The notes beneath the pieces were generated by a model. The model was not told the origin of the DNA and did no database searches. It saw nothing but the letters and a program-made list of their open reading frames with translations. Source: Thauera sp. 28 (lineage in GTDB: Bacteria > Pseudomonadota > Gammaproteobacteria > Burkholderiales > Rhodocyclaceae). From it: 64,000 nucleotides of DNA. The position numbers were made by a program, and so were the translations under genes. Each line of letters begins with the position of its first letter. Position 1 is the stretch's first letter. Shown here piece after piece: positions 56,988-63,937 of the stretch. The DNA lies in the NCBI RefSeq assembly GCF_000310145.2, contig NZ_AMXA01000003.1, forward strand, positions 186,001-250,000, given 5' to 3'.

Positions 56988-57353
56988 ATGAAAACCATCT
57001 TCCTCGTCGATGACTCCGCCACCATCCTGCTGTCGATCTCCGGGATCCTGAGCAAGGCTGGCTACGCGGTAGAGAAAGCGCCGAGCGCGCTCGACGCCCT
57101 CAAGAAATTCCAGGGCGGCGTCAAGGCAGACCTGCTGATTACCGATCTCAACATGCCGGGCATGAACGGCATCGAGTTCATCAAGGAGGTGCGCAAGCTG
57201 CCCGCGTATCGCTTCATGCCGATCCTGTTCCTGACCACGGAGTCGCAGCAGTCCAAGAAGGCGGAGGCCAAGGCGGCAGGCGCTTCCGGCTGGATCGTCA
57301 AGCCCGCCTCGGCAGACGAACTGCTCAATACGATCAAGCTCGTCATGCGCTGA
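56988..57353 (+). CDS. CheY-like single-domain response regulator
   Basis: A 121-residue receiver domain without output. Acidic pocket D8/D9, phosphoacceptor D53 ([11 protein letters not shown]), T83/T84 and K105 (VKPAS) are all present, so it can be phosphorylated by CheA and act as a diffusible signal. It is the first gene of the operon, 2 bases before a receptor-like protein with a CheZ-type motif that could dephosphorylate it. The target (flagellar motor or another system) is not shown. Confidence 0.92.
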
Positions 57354-57355
57354 CC

Positions 57356-58630
57356 ATGAACTCCTCGATCTTCCTGCGTCGCTCACTGGTGATGCTGGGC
57401 GCCATCGCGCTCGCCGCCGGCGTCACGGTGTTCCTGTTCAACGAGTGGTTCAACGCCAGCTTCCTGCCGGCGCTGGGCATCCCCCAACCGCTCGGAAACG
57501 CGATCGGCGCAATGTTGATCGTCTTCGCGGCCTATCTCGGGGTGCGTCTGGTATCGCTCGCCGTCTTTCGCGACGCTGCATTCGGCCAGGAGATCACCCT
57601 CGACACGCTGCAGAACAACCGCGAACAAGCCAGCCAGGTCTGCCGGGAAATCGCCGTCGAGCTACGTGCCGTGCCGGCTTTCAGCGACGTGCTGCGCAAG
57701 CAACTCGACAGCGTCGTGCAGCAGACCGAACAGGCTGCCTACGACATCGGCGAGCGTCTGCAGACGATTGACGACGTGGTCAATCGGCTCAACACCTTCG
57801 TCACCGAACAGTCGAACGAGTCGACCGAGAGGGTGCATAGCTCGGAATCGCGCATCGCCAACAACCAGAAGCTCATCCGGCGCATGCAGCAGTACATCGA
57901 CCATCGCATCCAGGAAGCCCGGGAGGATCAGGAGCGCGTCGCCCAGGTGGTCCGCGAGGCACGCTCGCTGGAGTCGCTGACCAAGCTGATCAAGGACATC
58001 GCAGCACAGACCAACCTGCTCGCACTCAATGCCGCGATCGAGGCAGCGCGGGCGGGCGAAGCCGGTCGCGGCTTCACGGTCGTTGCCGACGAGGTTCGCA
58101 AACTATCGACCGAGACGGAAAATGCCGTGCAGTCGATCAACCTTGGCATCCAGGGCGTGGCCTCGACGATCGAGACCCAGCTCAAGGAAAAACTGGCCGC
58201 CACCGATCTCGACGACGAACGTGACGCGCTAGGCCAGTTCGCCGTGCAGCTCGCCGAACTCGGCCAAAGCTACGAAGACATCCTGCAGAATCAATCCAGC
58301 GCAATGGACACGGTGCGCCAGAGCAGCAACGAACTGGCAGCGATGTTCATGGATGCGCTGGCGAGCGTCCAGTTCCAGGACGTCACCCGGCAGCAGATCG
58401 AACACACGGCCGAATCGCTCAGTCGCCTCGACCAGCACCTGGGCGTACTCGCCGAGCGGCTCGATCAGAGCGACAACCCCAGCTTCAGCTACACCCCGCT
58501 CGCGGAGCACCTGGAAGAGATCTATGGCCGTTACGTGATGGAGCAACAGCGCCACACGCACGAGCAGGTCACCGGCAAGACATCGTCAGGTACCGCAGCG
58601 GCAGCAAATCCAAAGATCGAACTTTTCTGA
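57356..58630 (+). CDS. Membrane chemoreceptor-like protein with CheZ-type phosphatase motif
   Basis: A 424-residue protein with two N-terminal membrane helices (about residues 8-28 and 45-68) and almost no periplasmic sensor. The MCP signalling hairpin (about 195-270) contains the tip [21 protein letters not shown]. After it comes [12 protein letters not shown], in which D342 and Q346 match the catalytic D-x3-Q pair of CheZ (FQDLTGQVIKR in E. coli). The tail ends in PKIELF, also like a docking peptide. It is probably a receptor-phosphatase hybrid acting on the CheY encoded just upstream; activity is inferred from the motif. Confidence 0.8.
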
Positions 58631-58638
58631 GTACGACC

Positions 58639-58959
58639 ATGCCTGCGCGCAAGAAAAAGACCGGGGATCGCATCGCCATCGCCGAGGACATGAGCATCTA
58701 CCACGCTGCAGCACAGAAGCAGCAGCTCATCGACGCACTGCACCACGCAGCCGAGCGCCTTGAGATCGACCTCTCCGGCGTCGCCGAAATCGACACCGCC
58801 GGCTTCCAGCTTCTGATGCTGGTCAAGCGCGAGGCACGCCGACTCGGCAAGGAGGCACAGATCATCGCGCACAGCGAGGCAGTACGCGACGTGCTCGATT
58901 TCTACAACATGGCAGCCGAGTTCGGCGATCCGCTGCTTATCCCGGCAAACCAGGCCTGA
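58639..58959 (+). CDS. STAS-domain protein without usual phosphoacceptor
   Basis: A 106-residue single STAS domain (anti-anti-sigma/SpoIIAA-like fold). The helix-2 motif reads D52-T-A-G55 where SpoIIAA has Asp-Ser-Ser-Gly; the phosphorylated Ser position is Ala, as in MlaB-type proteins. It probably acts as a binding module. It lies between the receptor and cheA in the same operon, so a signalling role is likely, but the partner is unknown. Confidence 0.82.
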   Translation: MPARKKKTGDRIAIAEDMSIYHAAAQKQQLIDALHHAAERLEIDLSGVAEIDTAGFQLLMLVKREARRLGKEAQIIAHSEAVRDVLDFYNMAAEFGDPLLIPANQA

Positions 58960-58977: not shown

Positions 58978-61203
58978 ATGGACGAGATCACCACCGTATT
59001 CGTCACCGAGAGTCGCGAACAACTCGCAACCCTCGAGTCGGCCCTGCTGCAACTCGAGAACAGCCCCGACGACGACGACACCCTGAACGCGATCTTCCGT
59101 AGCGCGCACACCATCAAGGGGGGCGCCGCGGTCATCGAATGCGGTTACATCGTCGCCTTCACCCATGTGGTCGAGAACGTACTCGACAAGTTGCGCAACC
59201 GCGAGATCAAGCTCGACTCAGACCTCATCGCGCTGCTGCTGGGCTGCGGCGACCACATCGGCAATCTGCTCGGCGTGCTCGAATCCGCTGCCAGCAGCCC
59301 CGACCCCGACCTCGCCGCCGAGGGCGAAGGGCTGCTCGCCCGCCTGCAGCGCGACTGGCTGTCGGAGACGAAGGCCGACTCGAGCTCGGGGCCGCCAAGC
59401 GCCATGCCGCCACCGATCGAGAGCAGCGGTGGCGGCATGGTCGAAACCGATTGCTGGCATATTTCGCTGCGCTTCGGCCCCGACGTGCTGAGGAACGGCA
59501 TGGACCCGCTGTCCTTTCTGCGCTACCTCGGCAGCATCGGGCGCATAGAGCGCCTGGAGACCATCGCCGACGCCATGCCGAACGCGGAGGACATGGATCC
59601 CGAGGCCTGCTACCTCGGCTTCGAGATCAGCTTCTCGTCCAATGCCGACAAGGCCGCCATCGAGCGCGTCTTCGACTTCGTGCGTGATGACTGCAGCCTG
59701 CACATCCTGCCCCCGCACAGCCGGCTGGACGACTACCTGGCGCACATAAACGCCCTGCCCGAAGACCCGATGCGCCTGGGCGAGATCCTGGTGAAGGTGG
59801 GTGCGCTGACCCAGGCCGAACTCGACGAGGGGCTCAGGCTGCAGCACGCGGACGACGGCGAAACCGTGCTGGCCGAGGCTCAGGACGCTCCCGCCGAGCC
59901 CCACCCGATCGGCGAGATCCTCGTCGAGCACAAGGTCGTCCAGGCCGAACTGGTCGATGCCGCGGTCGCCAAGCAGAAGCAGGTCACCGAAAAGAAGGTC
60001 GCCGAGGCGCGCCTGATCCGCATCCAGGCCGACAAGCTCGACCGCCTCATCGACCTCGTCGGCGAGCTCGTCATCGCCGGCGCCAGCGTCAGTCTTCTAG
60101 CCAGTCGCAGCGGCCTGGGCGAGCTGGTCGAAGCCAACTCCATTACCAGCCGCCTGGTCGAGAGTATTCGTGACGCTGCGCTGCAACTGCGCATGGTGCA
60201 GATCGGCGAGACCTTCAACCGCTTCAACCGCGTCGTGCGCGACACCGCACGCGAGATGGGCAAGGACATCGAGCTGGTGATCAGCGGCGGTGAAACCGAG
60301 CTCGACAAATCCATGGTCGAGAAGATCGGCGACCCGCTGATGCATCTGGTGCGCAATGCCATGGACCATGGCCTGGAGCAGCCTGCGGCGCGCGAGGCCA
60401 AGGGCAAACCGGCGCGCGGCCGGCTCGAACTCAACGCCTTCCACGACTCGGGCAGCATCGTCATCGAGGTGGCAGACGATGGCGCCGGCCTGAACCGCGA
60501 CCGTATCCTCGCCAAGGCGATCGAGCGCGGACTCGCCCAGCCTGGCCAGGCCCTGTCGGACGCCGAGATCTACAACCTGATCTTCGAGCCCGGCTTTTCC
60601 ACCGCCGAGAAGGTCACCAACATTTCCGGCCGTGGCGTTGGCATGGACGTCGTCCGCCGCAACATACAGAGCCTGCGCGGCAGCGTCGAGGTCAGCTCCG
60701 AGATCGGCAAGGGCTCGCGCTTCGCCATCCGCCTGCCGCTCACGCTGGCGATCATCGACGGCTTCCTCGTCGGCATCGGCGATGCCGCCTACGTCATCCC
60801 GCTCGACAGCGTGGTCGAGTGTGTCGAGCTCTCGGTGGATGGCTTCACCCGCGACTACGTCAACCTGCGCGGCGAAGTCCTGCCCCTGGTGCGGCTGCGC
60901 CAGATGTTCGACATGGCGGGCGAGGCACCGGCGCGTCAGAACGTGGTCGTCGTACAGTACGCCGGGATCAAGTCCGGCATCGTGGTCGATCAGCTGATGG
61001 GCGAATTCCAGACCGTCATCAAGCCGCTCGGCAGCATTTTCCGCCACATCAAGGGGATTGGCGGCTCAACCATCCTCGGCAGCGGCGAGGTCGCACTCAT
61101 CCTCGACGTGCAGGCATTGGTTCAGCGCTGCGCTTCGAGCGAGGAGCAACGCGCCGGCGGCCACGCCACCACGCGCGCACCCGCCTTGGCAGCCCGCAAC
61201 TGA
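58978..61203 (+). CDS. cheA: Chemotaxis histidine kinase CheA with MshEN-like motifs
   Basis: A 741-residue kinase. P1 has the phosphoacceptor H44 (SAHTIKGGA). Residues about 157-246 form a P2-like alpha/beta module with CWHISLRFGPDVLRNGMDP. Two 24-residue motifs follow: 266-289 (RLGEILVKVGALTQ...) and 310-333 (PIGEILVEHKVVQ...). P3 dimerisation starts near 345 (RIQADKLDRLIDLVGELVIA). The P4 ATPase domain shows MHLVRNAMDHGLE, DDGAGL and GRGVGMDVV, and a CheW-like P5 domain ends the protein. No separate cheW is visible here. It phosphorylates CheY and possibly a CheB elsewhere. Confidence 0.95.
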   Translation: MDEITTVFVTESREQLATLESALLQLENSPDDDDTLNAIFRSAHTIKGGAAVIECGYIVAFTHVVENVLDKLRNREIKLDSDLIALLLGCGDHIGNLLGVLESAASSPDPDLAAEGEGLLARLQRDWLSETKADSSSGPPSAMPPPIESSGGGMVETDCWHISLRFGPDVLRNGMDPLSFLRYLGSIGRIERLETIADAMPNAEDMDPEACYLGFEISFSSNADKAAIERVFDFVRDDCSLHILPPHSRLDDYLAHINALPEDPMRLGEILVKVGALTQAELDEGLRLQHADDGETVLAEAQDAPAEPHPIGEILVEHKVVQAELVDAAVAKQKQVTEKKVAEARLIRIQADKLDRLIDLVGELVIAGASVSLLASRSGLGELVEANSITSRLVESIRDAALQLRMVQIGETFNRFNRVVRDTAREMGKDIELVISGGETELDKSMVEKIGDPLMHLVRNAMDHGLEQPAAREAKGKPARGRLELNAFHDSGSIVIEVADDGAGLNRDRILAKAIERGLAQPGQALSDAEIYNLIFEPGFSTAEKVTNISGRGVGMDVVRRNIQSLRGSVEVSSEIGKGSRFAIRLPLTLAIIDGFLVGIGDAAYVIPLDSVVECVELSVDGFTRDYVNLRGEVLPLVRLRQMFDMAGEAPARQNVVVVQYAGIKSGIVVDQLMGEFQTVIKPLGSIFRHIKGIGGSTILGSGEVALILDVQALVQRCASSEEQRAGGHATTRAPALAARN
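59773..59976 (+). other. Tandem MshEN-like motif region inside cheA
   Basis: Residues 266-289 and 310-333 of CheA both fit LGxxLxxxGxxxxxxLxxALxxQ, the pattern by which MshEN (GspE N-terminal) domains bind c-di-GMP. They are separated by 20 residues. Motif 1 fits well (RLGEILVKVG, final Gln). Motif 2 lacks the Gly after the Leu strand (EHKVV). Binding is not shown. Confidence 0.5.
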
Positions 61204-61242: not shown

Positions 61243-63309
61243 ATGAAGAACCTGAAGATCGGCATCCGGCTCGGCATTGGCTTCGCCATCGTGCTGCTGC
61301 TGCTGGTCGCCATCGCGGCCGTGGGCAGCCTGCGACTGAGCAACCTGCAGGCCGAAATCACCGACATCGTCAGCGACAAGAACGTCAAGCTGTCGACCTC
61401 GAACGAGATGATCGCGTCGATCAATCTGATCGGGATGTTGCACCGGAACATGCTGATCATGCGCGGCGAGCAGGACCTGCGCGACTTCGCGCAATCAACA
61501 AGCGCAGAACGCGCCAAGCTGCTGCGCAACCTGGAAGCCCTCGACCGCCTGAAATACAGCGACGAAGGCAAGCGGCAGCTCGAATCCGTCAAGTCCACCC
61601 GGCAGGCTTTCATCGGTCTGCAGCAAGAGTTCGAGGGGCTGATCCAGCAGCGCGACTTCGACACGGCGACCGCCATGTTCTCGGCGACCTATCGCCCAGC
61701 CTTCCTCGCCTATCTCGACGCGCTCAACAAGTTCATCGCCTACCAGACCGCGCTCACGCAACAGATCGGTGGCAATGCCGAAGTGCTCGCCGAGCGTTCC
61801 GTTACCGTACTGATCGGGCTGGCGATTGCCGCGCTGCTGGTCGGTATCGGCTTTGCCATCTTCATCACGCGCTCGATCACGCGCCCGGTGGGCGAGGTGA
61901 GCGCCGCTGCCGAGCGCATGGCCAGGGGCGACTTCGCCTTCGACCTCCAGTCCGACGCCAAGGACGAGGTGGGTAGCGTGGTGCGTGCAGTGGCCGGCGT
62001 CCAGACCAGCGTCAAGCGCATGATCGACGACGCCAGCATGCTGGCCGACGCCGCAATCGCCGGCAAGCTCGCCACCCGCGCCGACGCCAGCCGCCACGAG
62101 GGCGATTTCCGCAAGATCGTCGACGGCGTCAATGCCACGCTCGACGCCGTCATCGGGCCGCTCAACGTGGCCGCCGACTACGTCGACCAGATTGCCAAGG
62201 GCGCCATCCCCGCCCGCATCACCGACAGCTACAACGGTGACTTCAACACCATCAAGAACAACCTCAACACCGCCATCGACGCGGTCAATGCGCTCGTCAC
62301 CGACGCCAACATGCTCGCCCAGGCCGCCGTCGAGGGCCGCCTGTCCACCCGCGCCGACGCCAGCCGTCACCACGGCGACTACGCCCGCATCGTCCAGGGC
62401 GTCAACGCCACCCTGGATGCGGTCATCGCCCCCATCGACGAGGTCAAGCGCGTCATGGTCGCACTCTCCGGGGGCGACCTCACCCAGAAGATCACCGACA
62501 ACTACGCCGGCGACTTCCAGGTGCTGCAGAACGCAGTCAACGAGTCCATGGACAAGCTCGCCGAGATCATCGAGCAGGTCCGTGGCGCGGCCGATGCGCT
62601 CACCAACGCCGCAGGCCAGGTCTCGGCCACCGCTCAGAGCCTGTCCCAGTCCTCCTCCGAGCAGGCCGCCAGCGTCGAGGAAACCTCGGCTTCGATCGAG
62701 CAGATGAGCGCCTCGATCAACCAGAACTCGGAAAACGCCAAGATCACCGACGCCATGGCCACCAAGGCCGCCTCCGAAGCCGGCGAGGGCGGCCAGGCCG
62801 TCAAATCCACGGTCGAGGCGATGAAGAACATCGCCGGCAAGATCGGCATCATCGATGACATCGCCTACCAGACCAACCTGCTCGCGCTCAACGCCGCCAT
62901 CGAAGCGGCCCGTGCCGGCGAGCACGGCAAGGGCTTTGCGGTGGTCGCCGCCGAGGTCAGAAAGCTCGCCGAGCGCAGCCAGGTCGCCGCCCAGGAGATC
63001 GGCCAGCTCGCCGGCAACTCGGTCCACCTGGCCGAGCGCGCGGGTACGCTGCTCGACGAGATCGTGCCCTCGATCAACAAGACCTCCGACCTCGTGCAGG
63101 AGATCGCCTCGGCCAGCCAGGAGCAGACCGCCGGCGTCGGCCAGATCAACAACGCCATGGGCCAGCTCAACAAGGCCACCCAGCAGAACGCCTCGGCCTC
63201 CGAAGAGCTTGCCGCCACCGCCGAGGAGCTCGGCGGGCAGGCCGGACAGCTGCAGGAGCTGATGGACTTCTTCACGGTGGTCAGCGCACACCGCGGTCGG
63301 GCGCGTTGA
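61243..63309 (+). CDS. Methyl-accepting chemotaxis protein with 4HB sensor and poly-HAMP array
   Basis: A 688-residue receptor. TM1 (about 7-29), a helical periplasmic domain of 4HB type (about 30-185), TM2 (about 188-212), a canonical HAMP ([21 protein letters not shown]) and then four further HAMP-like units up to about residue 445 are visible. Two of these units repeat almost identically 91 residues apart. The signalling domain has the tip [19 protein letters not shown] and flanking methylation helices. It lacks an NWETF-type CheR tether at its C-terminus. It lies between cheA and cheD. Confidence 0.93.
62038..62436 (+). repeat. Internal duplication in the poly-HAMP receptor gene
   Basis: Codons 266-307 and 357-398 encode closely similar segments (both contain TRADASRH and [10 protein letters not shown]) with an offset of 273 bases. 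The coding DNA is also similar, suggesting a recent duplication of a two-HAMP unit. Confidence 0.75.
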
Positions 63310-63346: not shown

Positions 63347-63937
63347 ATGATCGACTGGCACAACATGTCGCCGCAGGAAATCGAGCGCCGGGCGAGGAAC
63401 ATTGCGCCGGGCGAGTGGGCGGTCGAAATGCAGAAACCGATCTCCACCCTGCTCGGCTCCTGCGTTGCCGTGTGCATGTACGACCCGGCTGTCGGGGTCG
63501 GTGGCATGAACCATTTCATGCTGCCGAACATGCGCAAGCGAGAGGGGACGGTCGACGTGGATTCGCTGCTGTCCGGAGACTACGCGATGGAGGTGTTGCT
63601 CAACGGCATCCTCGGCCGCGGCGGCGCTCGCCATCGCATCAAGGCGAAGGCGTTTGGCGGCGGTACGATCATCAGCGGCATCGCCGCTTCGGGCATCGGC
63701 AAGCGCAATGCCGACTTCGCGCGCGAATGGCTCGATCGCGAAGGCATCGAGCTGATCGCCTCGGACTTCCTCGGCGCTTGCTCACGCAAGCTGCTCTTCG
63801 TGCCGGCGACAGGTGATGCATACTGCCGGCGCATGACCACCACAATGGCCACGGCCCAGGAAGTCGCCAAGGCCGAGCAGGCCTATGCCGAATCACTGCG
63901 ACGTCCCCCGCCCAAGTCCAATGTCGAACTGTTCTGA
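63347..63937 (+). CDS. cheD: Chemoreceptor glutamine deamidase CheD
   Basis: A 196-residue CheD that deamidates receptor glutamines and can bind CheC/CheX-type partners. The catalytic Cys39 (LLGSCVAV) and His56 (GGMNHFML) are 17 residues apart, as in Thermotoga CheD, with S33/T34 before the Cys. The C-terminal 30 residues are a flexible tail ending SNVELF, the same last three residues as the receptor-phosphatase hybrid in this operon. It lies 37 bases after the receptor. Confidence 0.93.
   Translation: MIDWHNMSPQEIERRARNIAPGEWAVEMQKPISTLLGSCVAVCMYDPAVGVGGMNHFMLPNMRKREGTVDVDSLLSGDYAMEVLLNGILGRGGARHRIKAKAFGGGTIISGIAASGIGKRNADFAREWLDREGIELIASDFLGACSRKLLFVPATGDAYCRRMTTTMATAQEVAKAEQAYAESLRRPPPKSNVELF

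Follow-up and report, generated by a model that had tools for sequence, protein, structure and literature searches.

A chemoreceptor-like protein encoded beside cheY in Thauera sp. 28 is probably a membrane-anchored CheZ-type phosphatase

The window analyzed here is a stretch of 64,000 nucleotides from Thauera sp. 28, in which an open reading frame at 57356–58630 on the forward strand encodes a receptor-like protein of 424 amino acids with a CheZ-type motif. The window features given coordinates below lie on the same strand. Near the N-terminus of the protein, two hydrophobic stretches separated by about 20 residues were recognized by reading as putative membrane helices: approximately residues 10–28 (57383–57439; in helix 3–40 of the structure model) and approximately residues 48–70 (57497–57565; inside helix 44–282 of the model). 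Pfam gave no match to a sensor or HAMP domain in this protein, in agreement with an earlier sequence-only reading of this DNA, which had described two membrane helices and almost no sensor. The MCP signalling domain, which that reading had called intact and placed before the motif, was found at residues 187–328 (PF00015, E = 2e-26, 93.3 bits against a cut-off of 34.6). Its tip region (approximately residues 213–250, 57992–58105) is an invariant block in two alignments, A2 and A4. About 100 residues lie C-terminal of the MCP domain. They contain FQDVTRQ at residues 340–346 (58373–58393), which matches FQDLTGQ of CheZ and includes D342 and Q346; a conserved segment at residues 393–402 (58532–58561), whose Y393 and H402 are invariant in A2 and at least 90% conserved in A4; and the C-terminal tail IELF (58616–58627), whose F424 is invariant in A2 and which falls in residues 411–424, where pLDDT is under 50. 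In the N-arm, residues 117–128 (57704–57739) resemble RLxYIAQMTEQAA of CheZ, and the distance of this motif before the MCP tip is about the distance of DxxxQ after it.

The gene is part of a chemotaxis cluster. Directly upstream, cheY (56988–57353; a single receiver domain, PF00072, E = 3.5e-25) stops two bases before the ATG, as had been read from the sequence, and its product is the presumed substrate. Downstream are genes for a STAS-domain protein (58639–58959; PF13466, E = 2.5e-14), for CheA (58978–61203) and for an ordinary MCP with a four-helix sensor and HAMP repeats (61243–63309), the latter two assigned by domain match, followed by cheD (63347–63937; PF03975, E = 4.6e-24), whose product ends in VELF (63923–63934). 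The frames downstream of the window read as cheR and cheB and, after these, as another cheR with a CheB catalytic domain. The latter stretch (L081:9400–11426) lacks a receiver in its CheB part, and by reading the arrangement resembles a tandem duplication. The linker of CheA (window approximately 59719–60030) contains two similar stretches, LGEILVKVGALTQAEL and IGEILVEHKVVQAEL, which we take to be reminiscent of MshEN-type repeats; their assignment to a known domain was rejected, as no Pfam match exceeded its cut-off.

The linkage to cheY is conserved. A search by motif pattern found 544 relatives, and we analyzed the loci of the best 80 of them (48 from Pseudomonas, 6 from Aeromonas and others including Gallionellaceae and Thiomonas). 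Of these 80 loci, 79 have a cheY gene on the same strand at a distance of at most 200 bp, 77 gave a STAS match and 79 a cheA match. The set of 80 loci is itself partly built in, since a search by profile or pattern prefers sequences in which the motif is retained. The pairing of the protein with its own cheY, proposed before from one locus, is thus a general one among these relatives. No CheZ match was obtained in the 4–10 kb stretches of the same 80 loci (the best 80 of 544) by phmmer with CheZ of Thauera sp. 28. In two genomes that have two copies of the protein (G034 and G265), each copy checked has a cheY. A mirror-tree comparison of the protein with its cheY gave r = 0.70 (67 pairs, permutation maximum 0.135), which was not used as proof because species history alone could give such a correlation.

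Models of CheZ match the protein weakly at the right place. The Pfam model PF04344 matched residues 254–370 (E = 0.0064, 16.8 of 30.7 bits) and the NCBIfam model NF041271 matched residues 309–372 (E = 1.6e-4, 21.2 of 350 bits), both below the cut-off; the profile search proposed by the sequence-only reading therefore found the site and missed both thresholds. With E values up to 1, the Pfam model matched 10 of the 17 members of A2 (best 2e-5) and missed 7, and NF041271 matched 12 of 17 family members (best 4.2e-6). The Pfam model at the same limit gave no match in six more distant members (L135, L309, L311, L312, L315 and L316). Furthermore, the C-terminal helix of CheZ ends in LGF (31 of the 32 rows of our CheZ set; one gene is represented by two rows, and the remaining row is truncated), and this helix is not found in the 424-aa protein, which has the tail IELF instead. 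We do not file the protein as CheZ because it falls short of the CheZ cut-offs and of this C-terminal helix.

Ordinary MCPs served as a control. We tried 26 loci, two of which had no usable frame, and obtained 24 ordinary MCPs, 17 of them from Thauera sp. 28. F[QE]DxxxQ was present in none of the 24, and CheZ was absent among the 25 families listed for them, with at most four (NCBIfam) or three (Pfam) further matches possible. The C-terminal half of A4 was aligned with a CheZ profile in register, residues 304–364 on profile positions 168–228, with a score of 34.5 (P = 3.2e-5); the best of 200 column shuffles scored 19.4 and the best window of ordinary MCPs 16.6. Because the control MCPs are free of the motif, the profile score lies above those of shuffles and MCP windows, and CheZ models match family members, we regard the FQDVTRQ segment, on sequence grounds, as a real CheZ-type segment beyond chance. 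For the N-arm, likeness to CheZ was seen in close relatives (P = 0.012); in the wide family, the TEQAA likeness was within the shuffles (P = 0.24) and is kept as suggestive.

Profiles of CheZ and of the family find each other's genes, weakly. A six-frame search with the CheZ model of 43 genomes, selected for bearing the receptor-like family or a soluble family described below, gave 38 matches over the cut-off and 9 below it, and 7 of these 9 are at loci of the receptor-like family. Among 61 relatives, the model gave one match below the cut-off, at member L034. The family profile matched canonical cheZ of G159, G265 and G289 at 8e-6 to 6e-5, and also canonical cheZ in L318. Against sequences of solved structures, the C-terminal profile gave no CheZ, its top match being a designed coiled coil, and the full-length family profile found chemoreceptors.

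These searches bear on another explanation, in which the protein acts as a genuine chemoreceptor, the motif has a structural role close to the membrane, and the likeness to CheZ reflects common helical-bundle packing. The MCP domain is intact, structure search finds receptors (see below), and Pseudomonas CttP, a protein with a similar architecture, is listed as a receptor for chloroethylenes in the available part of one source (PMC9864684) and reported to mediate the response to them in that of another (PMC7534058). However, the protein has no sensor domain, the motif is absent from all 24 ordinary MCPs, none of the windows taken from these controls is a good match to CheZ, and the motif-bearing domain exists also without an MCP tip. 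We therefore consider a plain receptor quite improbable.

Alignment A4 comprises 52 relatives with 18–78% identity, and outside the MCP tip the only invariant residues are Q339, D342 and Q346. Positions between D and Q vary (VTR, RVS, MSS, VVR, ISR). The earlier proposal that D342 and Q346 are the catalytic pair of CheZ was correct in its numbering and is upheld by the CheZ spacing and by conservation in 52 of 52 relatives; loss of D or Q in orthologues, which it had named as the result that would count against it, was not seen in any aligned relative. Both residues are also at aligned places in 50 of 50 loci found by profile (30 best matches and 20 chosen from lower matches), the window and the soluble proteins included, and this count is partly built in for the same reason as the set of 80 loci. 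We therefore used a control anchored on cheY, in which 30 loci were searched with an MCP-tip pattern instead of the motif. This gave 11 frames, 9 of which, including that of the window, have the motif; the other two are L270, which is cut by the locus end, and L280, an ordinary MCP without the motif. Two receptor-sized frames, in L267 and L277, were caught only by a motif-or-tail pattern. In the 48 of 52 rows that were measurable, D follows the tip arginine by 108–113 residues, and QTExA in the N-arm precedes this arginine by 98–111. Because of this spacing on both arms, the two would be at about the same height in an MCP hairpin.

Five sequences were dropped from A2, out of 16 close orthologues: L027, L028 and L031, which are near copies, L032, in which masked letters stand just after the motif, and L036, which is split over two frames. 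FQDVTRQ is present in each of the five. The same five were dropped from A4, together with short proteins and L125, whose motif FDDIVSQ keeps D and Q. The split orthologue L036 (from G019) is either a pseudogene or an assembly error.

This conservation has to be weighed against the explanation that the segment is a docking site for CheY and no enzyme, holding CheY at the membrane or the array without dephosphorylating it. The linkage to cheY and the conservation of the motif fit docking too, as do the missed CheZ cut-offs and the distant members that have no Pfam CheZ match. On the other hand, the two residues that no aligned sequence lacks are the CheZ catalytic pair at CheZ spacing, and the positions in between vary. 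Thus, docking without catalysis seems rather unlikely to us, and a CheZ-type phosphatase is the reading that we prefer.

The family is larger than the window suggests. Lower matches of the family profile are soluble proteins of about 195 amino acids without an MCP tip, which have FQFYDxxxQ and mostly the tail IELF; examples are L145:6960–7550 and L147:2531–3103, and further members form the set L153–L182. A search with one soluble protein gave matches in 48 of 370 genomes, of which G249, G316 and G336 match only a receptor-like member. All 29 soluble relatives in alignment A6, which left out L157 as a near copy of L156, have QFxDxxxQ; Q99, F100, D102, Q106 and the phenylalanine of the tail are among the positions that do not vary. 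Profile comparison indicated a domain common to the soluble and the receptor-like families (probability 98%, score 83.7, shuffle maximum 21.8). A direct comparison of the soluble family with CheZ was rejected, as its score of 22.4 was below the shuffle maximum of 32.5 and the register was wrong; the soluble family is, as far as sequence comparison goes, tied to CheZ only via the receptor-like family. Six soluble proteins scanned with Pfam and three scanned with NCBIfam gave no family over the cut-off, and sequences of solved structures gave no CheZ, the top match again being a designed coiled coil. In L147 and L148, the genes that come directly after the soluble one are cheR, cheD and a gene with a receiver that we take for cheB. 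The sequence-only reading missed this large family with its soluble version and its CheD-like tail. In another class of the phylum, we also observed a 586-aa protein (L319:5818–7578) with YDDISSQ, YTMDSERRAHG and the tail IELF, matched by the family profile at 3e-14; Pfam gave no MCP match in it.

Structure prediction gave an all-helix monomer for the 424-aa protein (mean pLDDT 81.7, pTM 0.45), with helix breaks at residues 41–43 and 283–284 and low confidence from residue 411. The turn at the MCP tip does not appear in this model of pTM 0.45, and Foldseek with it returned chemoreceptors and no CheZ among the 50 matches listed of 389. A model of the soluble protein has two long helices, 16–65 and 71–123, and the second bears the motif; its Foldseek matches were weak coiled coils, none of the 50 listed having an E value of 0.001 or better.

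Because the monomer model has no tip turn, the hairpin and dimer geometry used here is taken from the MCP family. In this geometry, the C-arm carrying Q339-F340-x-D342-x3-Q346 would be level with the QTExA stretch of the N-arm, and the four-helix bundle of the dimer would form a CheZ-like active site. In E. coli CheZ, whose active site turns off the signal for swimming, D143 engages a lysine of CheY and Q147 places the attacking water, and the flexible C-terminus tethers CheY. By analogy, contact with the conserved CheY lysine would fall to D342 and positioning of the attacking water to Q346. The substrate would be the CheY encoded beside the gene, and the linker with its IELF tail probably tethers a partner. 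Taken together, we think it likely, from sequence comparison, that the 424-aa protein is a membrane-anchored phosphatase of CheZ type which acts on CheY-P and has a chemoreceptor hairpin as its scaffold. The receptor body probably houses an off-switch, which may place signal termination in the receptor array.

The tail is common to this protein and CheD in several clusters. Searched at the DNA level, [IV]E[LF]F followed by a stop occurs at four places in the genome, two of which are gene ends, those of the 424-aa protein and of cheD in the same cluster; valine encoded by GTG and leucine codons with a final A escape the pattern, so other genes may have such a tail. CheD has a like tail in L035, L139, L147 and L148 (in the last with one residue more), and in L107 CheD has ITFF where the receptor-like protein has ITFF. 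CheD of L136, L138, L140, L142, L314 and L317 is without such a tail. The tails of the receptor-like protein and CheD likely have a common docking partner. The common tail could also be explained if the protein were a former phosphatase that now only scaffolds CheD or CheR by way of this tail. A dead enzyme, however, should lose D or Q, and no aligned sequence has done so, which makes this explanation very unlikely indeed; a working phosphatase is what we continue to favour.

The sequence-only reading had asked whether Thauera sp. 28 has a separate cheZ, and there is one at C9:117403–117993, beside another cheY and a cheA; the gene of the 424-aa protein is outside this cheA-cheZ-cheY cluster. 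A point against our preferred reading is that a CheX-like protein, another phosphatase type, is encoded elsewhere in the Thauera sp. 28 genome. CheX-like matches were found in G034, G424, G327 and G000. CheC/CheX phosphatases have the same presumed substrate, CheY-P, and differ from CheZ in fold and motif. FliM is present in G424 and G327, in which no CheZ match was found. G034, a draft that is 98% complete, has two cheY-protein-STAS-cheA sets (L133 and L134) and gave no match to CheZ or FliM. From this genome, the pairing of cheY with the protein seems to outlive flagella, and the chemosensory output of G034 is probably not flagellar.

Among known systems, CheZ resembles the 424-aa protein in its FQDxTxQ motif with the catalytic residues D and Q, in its long helices, in a C-terminal tail that is set off by a linker and in having its gene next to cheY. 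It differs in that the 424-aa protein has membrane stretches and an MCP tip, scores below both CheZ cut-offs and ends in the IELF tail. Another relevant system is the F7 chemosensory cluster. In three genomes of one genus (L309–L311), we found cheB, cheD, cheR, an MCP ending in DWEEF, cheW, cheA and cheY, followed by a family member of about 400 amino acids, which has FQDMSSQ and the tail EVELF and matches the A1 profile at 4e-8 to 8e-8; CheD ends in IDLF there. F7 clusters are laid out in this way, presumably in the gene order of P. aeruginosa PA0173 to PA0180, here with the MCP as the Aer2-like receptor that has the CheR pentapeptide and the family member as the McpA-like protein. In the tail EVELF, valine stands at position two of the pentapeptide, as PMC7184735 describes for PA0180. 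The window has cheY, STAS, cheA, MCP and cheD, with cheR and cheB by reading. McpA/CttP-like F7 clusters differ from it: in the window, a STAS gene separates the receptor-like gene from cheA, and the MCP is a membrane protein where theirs is Aer2-like. The 424-aa protein itself has the McpA/CttP traits: a transmembrane region (by reading), no sensor domain and a C-terminus (KIELF) without x-[HFYW]-x2-[HFYW]. As described in the available text of PMC7184735 and PMC7534058, the McpA/CttP-like proteins PA0180 and VCA1088 likewise have an MCP domain, a membrane region, no sensor domain and a C-terminus without the CheR pentapeptide. Judged by the F7-like members L309–L311 and these traits, the family appears to include the McpA/CttP-like "receptors" of F7 clusters.

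According to the accessible part of PMC7184735, PA0180 has valine at the second position of the CheR pentapeptide, and the McpA-like protein has a conserved C-terminus, its role being called unclear. The same part of that source states that the F7 array persists when the McpA-like protein is deleted and that McpA is found in association with the F6 array; it also states that in stages 1 and 2 only F6 clusters include cheZ, with cheY in both F6 and F7. A phosphatase site in the McpA-like C-terminus would explain both the lack of cheZ in F7 clusters and the conserved C-terminus. What has been presumed to be a receptor would then be a terminator of the signal, possibly a regulated CheY phosphatase joined to a receptor. 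In the literature found, which is mostly outside subscription journals and was available in part, there was no CheZ site assigned to an McpA/CttP-like protein, which is weak evidence of novelty. CheT of Sinorhizobium meliloti is a precedent for a remote DXXXQ phosphatase: as far as the available part of PMC12654446 goes, it is a remote CheZ-like protein recognised by DXXXQ, is reported to act on one of two CheYs and is said to bind CheR. CheT and the 424-aa protein, compared by description only, are alike in being remote CheZ-like proteins with DXXXQ and differ in that no receptor part is described for CheT in that portion of the source (PMC12654446).

A wider reading can be offered more tentatively, as a possibility that we rate somewhat below even. 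The McpA/CttP-like "receptors", the cheY-STAS-cheA relatives and the soluble proteins of about 195 amino acids may together make up a superfamily of CheY phosphatases that has gone unrecognised, with QFxDxxxQ and an [IV]ELF or ITFF tail, often common to CheD, as its marks. Signal termination, which on paper is missing from F7-type clusters, might come from this superfamily, and common ancestry might link CheZ with the receptor stalk. If so, array state could act as the switch of a phosphatase that is linked in this way to a receptor hairpin. We also observed that an NCBIfam model of another name, NF052273 (BB0569 family chemotaxis protein), matches 13 of the 17 A2 members across the motif region (best 2e-7), for example L002:1501–2772 at residues 190–359; BB0569 is presumably a Borrelia locus name.
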